Source: Pelagibacterales bacterium MED-G42 (GTDB lineage: Bacteria > Pseudomonadota > Alphaproteobacteria > Pelagibacterales > Pelagibacteraceae). From it: DNA of 38,416 nt. Made by a program: the position numbers and the translations under genes. Every line of letters starts with the position of its first letter. Positions within the stretch are counted from its first letter, which is position 1. The stretch is from assembly GCA_002457485.1 (NCBI GenBank), contig NTJL01000008.1, forward strand, positions 1 to 38,416. Reading direction: 5' to 3'. This document shows positions 23,231 through 24,147 of the stretch, piece after piece. Below the pieces are notes generated by a model that was not told the DNA's origin, ran no database searches, and saw nothing but the letters and a program-made list of their open reading frames with translations.

Positions 23231-23806
23231 ATGTCAAACGCTCCTTTAATGCCGATGGCTACAGCTGTTTGGTTGGTAGAAAATACAACATTAACTTTTA
23301 GACAAATTGCAAACTTTTGTAATTTACATGAGGTAGAAATTCAGGGGATAGCAGACGGAGAGGTTGCAAAAGGAATTAAAGCTTATAACCCAATAATTTC
23401 AGGTCAACTTTCAAGAGAAGAAATAGAACTATCCTCTAAAGATGAGGAAAGACCTTTAAATATTAAAAACACAGATATTGAAATTTCAAACACTGAAAAA
23501 AAAATAAAAAAATACATCCCTCTGTCAAAGAGGCAAGATAAACCAGATTCGGCCTTGTGGCTCATTAAGCAACACAATACTCTTAAAGACTCACAGGTAG
23601 CTAGACTTGTAGGAATTACTAAAAATTCAGTCACATCCATTAGGAACAAAAGCTATTGGAATTATAATAATCTTAACCCCAAAGACCCAGTGGCTTTAAA
23701 TTTATTTAGCCAAAAGGATTTGGTAGAAGCATTAGAAAAAGCTGAAAGAAGAATAAAAAGAGAAAAAAAGGAAAAGGAAAAACAAATAAATAAAACTCAA
23801 GTATAG
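23231..23806 (+). CDS. DUF1013 family / TrcR-like cell cycle transcriptional regulator
   Basis: APLMPMATAVWLVENTTLTFRQIANFCNLHEVEIQGIADGEVAKGIKAYNPI, conserved alphaproteobacterial family. Confidence 0.88.
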   Translation: MSNAPLMPMATAVWLVENTTLTFRQIANFCNLHEVEIQGIADGEVAKGIKAYNPIISGQLSREEIELSSKDEERPLNIKNTDIEISNTEKKIKKYIPLSKRQDKPDSALWLIKQHNTLKDSQVARLVGITKNSVTSIRNKSYWNYNNLNPKDPVALNLFSQKDLVEALEKAERRIKREKKEKEKQINKTQV

Positions 23807-23834
23807 TGTATAAAATGAATGGACATAAAATTAT

Positions 23835-23857
23835 AAAAGTGTTATTTAACCACTTTT
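23835..23857 (+). promoter_or_regulatory. Inverted repeat with T-run just upstream of the rpsU ribosome-binding site (candidate terminator/attenuator or leader hairpin)
   Basis: AAAAGTG (23835-23841) / CACTTTT (23851-23857), 9-nt loop, T-run continuing directly into the GGAGG Shine-Dalgarno. AT-rich, so stability is uncertain. Confidence 0.4.
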
Positions 23858-23869
23858 TTGGAGGTAGTT

Positions 23870-24064
23870 ATTAAAATAGAAGTAAAAGATAATAATATTG
23901 AACAAGCTTTAAGAGTTTTAAAAAGAAAACTTCAAAGAGATGGTTTTTTTAAAGTAATAAAATTAAAAAATACTTATGAAAAACCTTCAGAAAAGAAAAA
24001 AAGAATTCTTCAAGAAAATATTAAAAGAGTAAAAAAATTAAATAAACTTAAAAATAGAATTTAA
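23870..24064 (+). CDS. rpsU: 30S ribosomal protein S21 (proposed ATT start; the ORF track uses TTG at 23858)
   Basis: IEVKDNNIEQALRVLKRKLQRDGFFKVIKLKNTYEKPSEKKKR is S21. GGAGG at 23860-23864 is 5 nt upstream of ATT (23870), and MKIEVKDNN aligns in length with typical alphaproteobacterial S21 N-termini (MQVLVRDNN-like, from memory). Confidence 0.9.
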   Translation: MKIEVKDNNIEQALRVLKRKLQRDGFFKVIKLKNTYEKPSEKKKRILQENIKRVKKLNKLKNRI

Positions 24065-24070
24065 GTATAC

Positions 24071-24147
<77 letters not shown>

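Follow-up and report, generated by a model that had tools for sequence, protein, structure and literature searches.

The question raised by this locus is where translation of rpsU, the gene for ribosomal protein bS21, begins in a genome of SAR11, a group that is among the most abundant marine bacteria. The window, i.e., the whole stretch of DNA that was analysed, is 38,416 nucleotides long. Within it, the ORF caller picked a TTG codon, which yields an ORF of 68 aa (23858–24064) preceded by an in-frame TAA stop (23834–23836). The sequence-only reading of the window had proposed instead that the gene begins at a rare ATT codon further downstream. Upon re-reading, every base that it had quoted at the rpsU start was found to be correct, as was its statement that the stretch from the upstream stop to the DNN motif holds no in-frame ATG or GTG. 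The features of the locus are collected in Table 1.

Table 1. Features at and around rpsU in the window.
Feature	Position	Strand	Basis or remark
trcR (transcriptional cell cycle regulator), upstream gene, context	23231..23806	+	PF06242, 2.5e-54
Promoter-like TGGACA-17 nt-TATTTA, extended -10 TG at 23840-23841	23820..23848	+	Read from sequence
TTG picked by the ORF caller; judged not to be the start	23858..23860	+	Overlaps the Shine-Dalgarno sequence; unconserved
Shine-Dalgarno sequence GGAGG, 5 nt upstream of ATT	23860..23864	+	GGAGG or GGGGG in 73/73 non-ATG rows
Predicted start codon ATT	23870..23872	+	Aligns with GTG/ATG/TTG in other Alphaproteobacteria and with ATG/ACG/ATC in sister lineages
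rpsU (bS21), 64 aa, MKIEVKDNNIEQAL..., predicted ATT start, TAA stop	23870..24064	+	PF01165, TIGR00030, conserved ATT position
tRNA-Met (CAT), with the C1:A72 mismatch of initiator tRNA	24071..24147	+	6 nt 3' of the rpsU stop

The 64-aa product that an ATT start would give matches the bS21 family models PF01165 (8.3e-16, above the cut-off) and NCBIfam TIGR00030 (8.9e-15), and its TIGR00030 equivalog score of 54.3 bits, against a cut-off of 28.95, places it within bS21. A TAGTT spacer (23865–23869) separates GGAGG from ATT, and the codons that follow are AAA ATA GAA GTA AAA GAT AAT AAT. From the comparison with relatives described below, rpsU of this genome almost certainly starts at the ATT at 23870.

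We searched 399 genomes of the genus for the pattern GGAGG-N5-ATT-AAR-ATH-GAN-GTN-AAR-GAY-AAY-AA, which joins the Shine-Dalgarno (SD) sequence and ATT to the S21 codons. The pattern was present in 266 of the 399 genomes, while ATG at exactly the position of the ATT codon was present in 16; the reversed control pattern had zero matches in all rows listed for the survey, and the pattern thus exceeds chance. Many of the genomes with neither pattern are incomplete and others carry near variants, and rpsU was undetectable in 47 of 201 genomes. In the first genus loci aligned, GGAGG and ATT were invariant (30/30), whereas the TTG codon was variable, which supports the proposal of an ATT start. Variants among the genomes followed were ACG behind GGAGG (four loci), ATC behind GGAGG (one locus) and ATT behind GGGGG (four loci). 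At this codon, ATT is replaced in relatives solely by ACG, ATC or ATG. A change from ATT to ACG would be odd for an internal isoleucine codon, yet it would be a swap between two weak starts. The hundreds of independent genomes rule out a sequencing or assembly error as the source of ATT.

Near-identical rpsU loci from named genomes, 80 in number, belong without exception to Pelagibacteraceae/Pelagibacterales/Pelagibacter records, which places the window in SAR11 (Pelagibacteraceae). Among 80 loci of named Pelagibacteraceae/SAR11 records, a non-canonical codon behind a strong SD was found in 79 (77 ATT, 2 ATC), the remaining one having ATG without an SD. Of the 73 aligned family loci, 16 have no canonical in-frame start anywhere from the upstream stop to ATT; these include all ten sampled loci from other genera of the family. 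Several family loci have a stop codon a few codons 5' of ATT. By codon position and by the lack of a canonical alternative, rpsU groups with conserved non-canonical-start genes of the infC kind, and a strong SD at a suitable spacing, as in genes of that kind, is present as well. A start at TTG, with the product MEVVIKIEVK..., is extremely improbable: although TTG is the sole canonical in-frame codon from the upstream stop to the conserved domain in this window, its position reads TAG, CTG, CCG, TGG, AGG or TAA in relatives, those 16 family loci have nothing canonical upstream of ATT, and TTG itself overlaps GGAGG and would be preceded by about 3 nt of the predicted transcript. The ATA codon at 23876 was discarded as a start, since it is with ATT that the ATG, ACG and ATC of sister lineages and the GTG, TTG and ATG of other Alphaproteobacteria align. 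Synonymous conservation was dropped as proof of the ATT start; the neighboring ATA codon is equally conserved (64 of 69 distinct sequences), and the third base of ATT is no more conserved than that of ATA.

The non-canonical start is not confined to the genus. In the sister family of the same order, rpsU starts with ATA at 37 of 38 loci and with ATC at the other, behind GGAGG or GGGGG, and 35 of the 38 lack any canonical in-frame start. The codon after ATA varies among GTT, GTC and GTA, which favours ATA as the start. From these alignments, rpsU appears to be translated from non-canonical starts nearly throughout the order Pelagibacterales. Inferred starts at 70 other alphaproteobacterial loci were GTG (38), ATG (13), TTG (11) and candidate ATC or ATA (8). 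At 54 of these 70 loci, GTG, ATG or TTG stands six codons ahead of DNN; the length of the ATT product had been said to match that of other alphaproteobacterial S21 proteins, and this count agrees. At loci L117, L131, L173, L183, L184, L170, L202 and L204, the most plausible start is ATC or ATA, one codon before GTT or GTA. All 30 copies of the control gene rpsO (uS15) have ATG close to the expected start, and in a phylum sample, with most of its loci scored, S21 genes of the gammaproteobacterial type mostly start with ATG. In Caulobacter, ATG accounts for 74.3% of mapped starts (PMC4117421).

The relation between start codon and SD was analysed on a tree of 91 rpsU loci, built with the leader and the start codon left out. 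Its rows comprise 68 ATT, 4 ACG, 1 ATC and 18 ATG. The weak codon and the strong SD occur as a pair, as GGAGG or GGGGG precedes the gene in all 73 non-ATG rows and in none of the 18 ATG rows. Four changes are needed to explain either trait on this tree, and well supported branches carry at least two of them. In an independent-pairs test, the coupling of SD and ATG rests on two to four independent events or pairs, too few for significance. ACG and ATG rows are intermixed within one clade, in which the ACG loci with GGAGG (L239, L240, L244 and L247) stand beside ATG lineages without SD.

The 16S rRNA 3' tail of the relatives includes ACCTCC. In genomes G012, G203, G205, G201 and G209 this tail reads GGATTACCTCCTT, against the usual GGATCACCTCCTT, and the extended SD complement is hence GGAGGTAAT. 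GGAGG and the following TA at rpsU give 7 nt of pairing with the relatives' tail. As background we used 233 ATG ORFs from stretches of a complete relative and from the window. A pairing run of at least 6 nt was found in 4% of them versus 59 of the 73 non-ATG rpsU loci; runs of at least 5 nt occur in 15% of the ORFs, that is, SDs are rare in these genomes, not absent. Pairing at the non-ATG rpsU loci is mostly of 5–8 nt, with a run of 9 or more in just 2 of 73. For the ATG rpsU genes the run is 3 at 19 of 21 loci, with repeat loci counted among them. Judged by these pairing runs, the SD of rpsU is exceptional for the SD-poor SAR11 genus.

Directly 5' of rpsU lies the promoter-like element of Table 1. 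It was not among the matches listed by the consensus scanner, and a TAGACA-spacer-TGnTA arrangement is present in relatives. From it, a transcript start at about 23855 can be predicted, with a leader of about 15 nt. Such a leader would be too short for structure, so control would have to act via the SD and the start codon. A hairpin above the SD (AAAGTG...CACTTT) was discarded: some relatives lack it, and it shares sequence with the promoter-like element. A search for Rfam leader elements at rpsU gave no credible match apart from the tRNA. The anticodon stem of the initiator tRNA downstream is made of A29:U41, G30:C40 and G31:C39, not of three G:C pairs.

IF3 has been shown to repress the ATT start of infC and the GTC start of sigR in other bacteria (PMC5472188). 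By analogy, the strong SD five bases upstream of ATT would recruit the 30S subunit to rpsU and compensate for a codon that IF3 destabilises. Synthesis of bS21 would thereby depend both on SD–anti-SD pairing and on IF3 activity; output would be held down, and could increase at times when free IF3 is scarce compared with 30S subunits. Sequence comparison shows the start codon, how it is coupled to the SD and how far it extends through the order; IF3 repression of rpsU and a feedback role would follow from the precedents of infC and sigR. As a joint explanation of the non-canonical start across the order and of the strong SD, we think it rather probable that bS21 synthesis is IF3- and SD-dependent. 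These parallels suggest that the cell throttles bS21 during translation, and infC-like translational control of rpsU fits the data. Only tentatively do we go further and propose that an IF3-disfavoured ATT, ATA, ATC or ACG with a strong SD constitutes start-codon control of rpsU across Pelagibacterales, and independently in some other Alphaproteobacteria, so that bS21 supply would read out the IF3/ribosome state in a second ribosome-linked loop of the infC type. Several findings stand against a regulatory reading. Two lineages have ATG without SD at rpsU and live without the weak codon, and infC of the window's genus starts with GTG, directly after the preceding stop. An ATT start in infC was considered for this genus and is absent; IF3 autocontrol by ATT is thus not used there. 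The residue of the IF3 C-domain matching E. coli R131 is K in the window's genome and in a relative (L162, L163), a replacement that could alter start discrimination in SAR11 and also speaks against this reading. In the sister family, infC genes with no canonical in-frame start (L132, L136, L140, L143–L151, L153, L155, L158–L161) probably begin at ATA, e.g., AAGGAGATTAAA-ATA, and in one other genus (L137, L142) the candidate start of infC is ATT.

The same observations could reflect static tuning, in which the weak ATT merely sets a fixed, modest rate, SD plus weak codon being equivalent to ATG with no SD, and no feedback exists. This is a real possibility, although we do not hold it to be the probable one. 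The two states swap on the tree with no intermediates, and in the ATG lineages both the promoter-like spacing and the tRNA 3' of rpsU are retained. The fit of static tuning is almost as good as that of IF3- and SD-dependent synthesis, because the weak codon is dispensable, as the ATG lineages demonstrate. Against it, to retain a strong SD in an SD-poor genome along with a weak codon, across two families, would be a roundabout way to a fixed rate, and the same design recurs with ATA in the sister family, with candidate ATC or ATA starts in scattered other Alphaproteobacteria.

Less likely, in our judgement, is autoregulation by bS21 through the SD as in Flavobacterium, where ribosomes lacking bS21 would make better use of a strong SD and the weak codon would raise SD dependence. 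rpsU of F. johnsoniae is indeed a strong-SD gene controlled via bS21 (PMC9976891), and the SD of SAR11 rpsU is exceptional in an SD-poor genome. In the Bacteroidia type of control, bS21, bS18 and bS6 sequester the anti-SD on the ribosome. However, pairing in SAR11 falls short of the extended SD of Bacteroidia (9–13 bp), with at least 9 reached at 2 of 73 non-ATG loci, and the residues of the anti-SD pocket are described as unique to Bacteroidia (PMC9976891). SD-based autoregulation and start-codon control by IF3 can be combined.

rpsU and the initiator tRNA gene are probably co-transcribed. The tRNA-Met was present at all 30 of the first genus loci, and of 94 loci scored, 83 have it 3–6 nt from rpsU. 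If rpsU were transcribed at the rate set by demand for the tRNA, the weak codon might serve to prevent an excess of bS21, and both the short gap and the promoter-like element directly 5' of rpsU would fit. We regard such transcript-level compensation as very unlikely, given that two ATT loci of one genus (L064, L065) have no nearby tRNA, that the tRNA lies more than 200 nt away in other genera, that it is absent at 11 of 11 scanned sister-family loci, which use ATA or ATC, and that ATG lineages retain it. A dependence of ATT on the adjacent tRNA is unsupported on the same grounds, since some ATT genomes have the tRNA far away or not at all and ATG lineages have kept it.

The literature searched, a coverage that mostly leaves out subscription papers, held no previous description of rpsU with a non-canonical start. 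To our knowledge, ATT-type starts occur in very few bacterial genes; in the order that contains the most abundant ocean bacteria, a gene for a ribosomal protein would carry them throughout. If so, gene callers limited to ATG, GTG and TTG give a wrong rpsU N-terminus in most of these genomes; in those that offer no canonical codon, they must overlook the start. The swap between a strong SD with a weak codon and ATG with no SD offers a natural experiment on compensation in translation start. According to a published account, no ribosomal protein is carried by phages more often than bS21 (PMC9976891). SAR11 phages also carry it: of three pelagiphage S21 genes (L220, L221, L222), two start with ATG and the third with TTG behind AGGAGGTAAT, and start-codon control in the host is possibly not shared by phages.

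Comparison with rpsU of other Alphaproteobacteria shows a start at the codon equivalent to ATT or one before, with ATG in the minority; most of them keep a canonical GTG or TTG, whereas the starts of Pelagibacterales are nearly all non-canonical. Among known systems, infC (ATT in E. coli, ATC in Streptomyces) is likewise a translation gene with a conserved ATH-type start, of a kind of codon against which IF3 discriminates (PMC5472188). It differs in its product, IF3, whereas that of rpsU is a ribosomal protein: any feedback loop would be indirect, and the IF3 dependence of rpsU is putative. In the window's genus, infC itself begins with GTG. Streptomyces sigR (GTC) offers another parallel, as it too does not encode IF3, is held at a low level by its non-canonical start and had that start misannotated to an upstream canonical codon (PMC5472188); it is a sigma factor gene of one genus, whereas the rpsU starts span an order and vary among ATT, ATA, ATC and ACG. 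Flavobacteriales rpsU is the same gene, with an exceptional SD within an SD-poor genome, and is autoregulated through an extended SD with pairing of 9–13 nt (PMC9976891). There the anti-SD is sequestered by the ribosome, whereas in SAR11 pairing is mostly of 5–8 nt and the start codon is the distinctive element.
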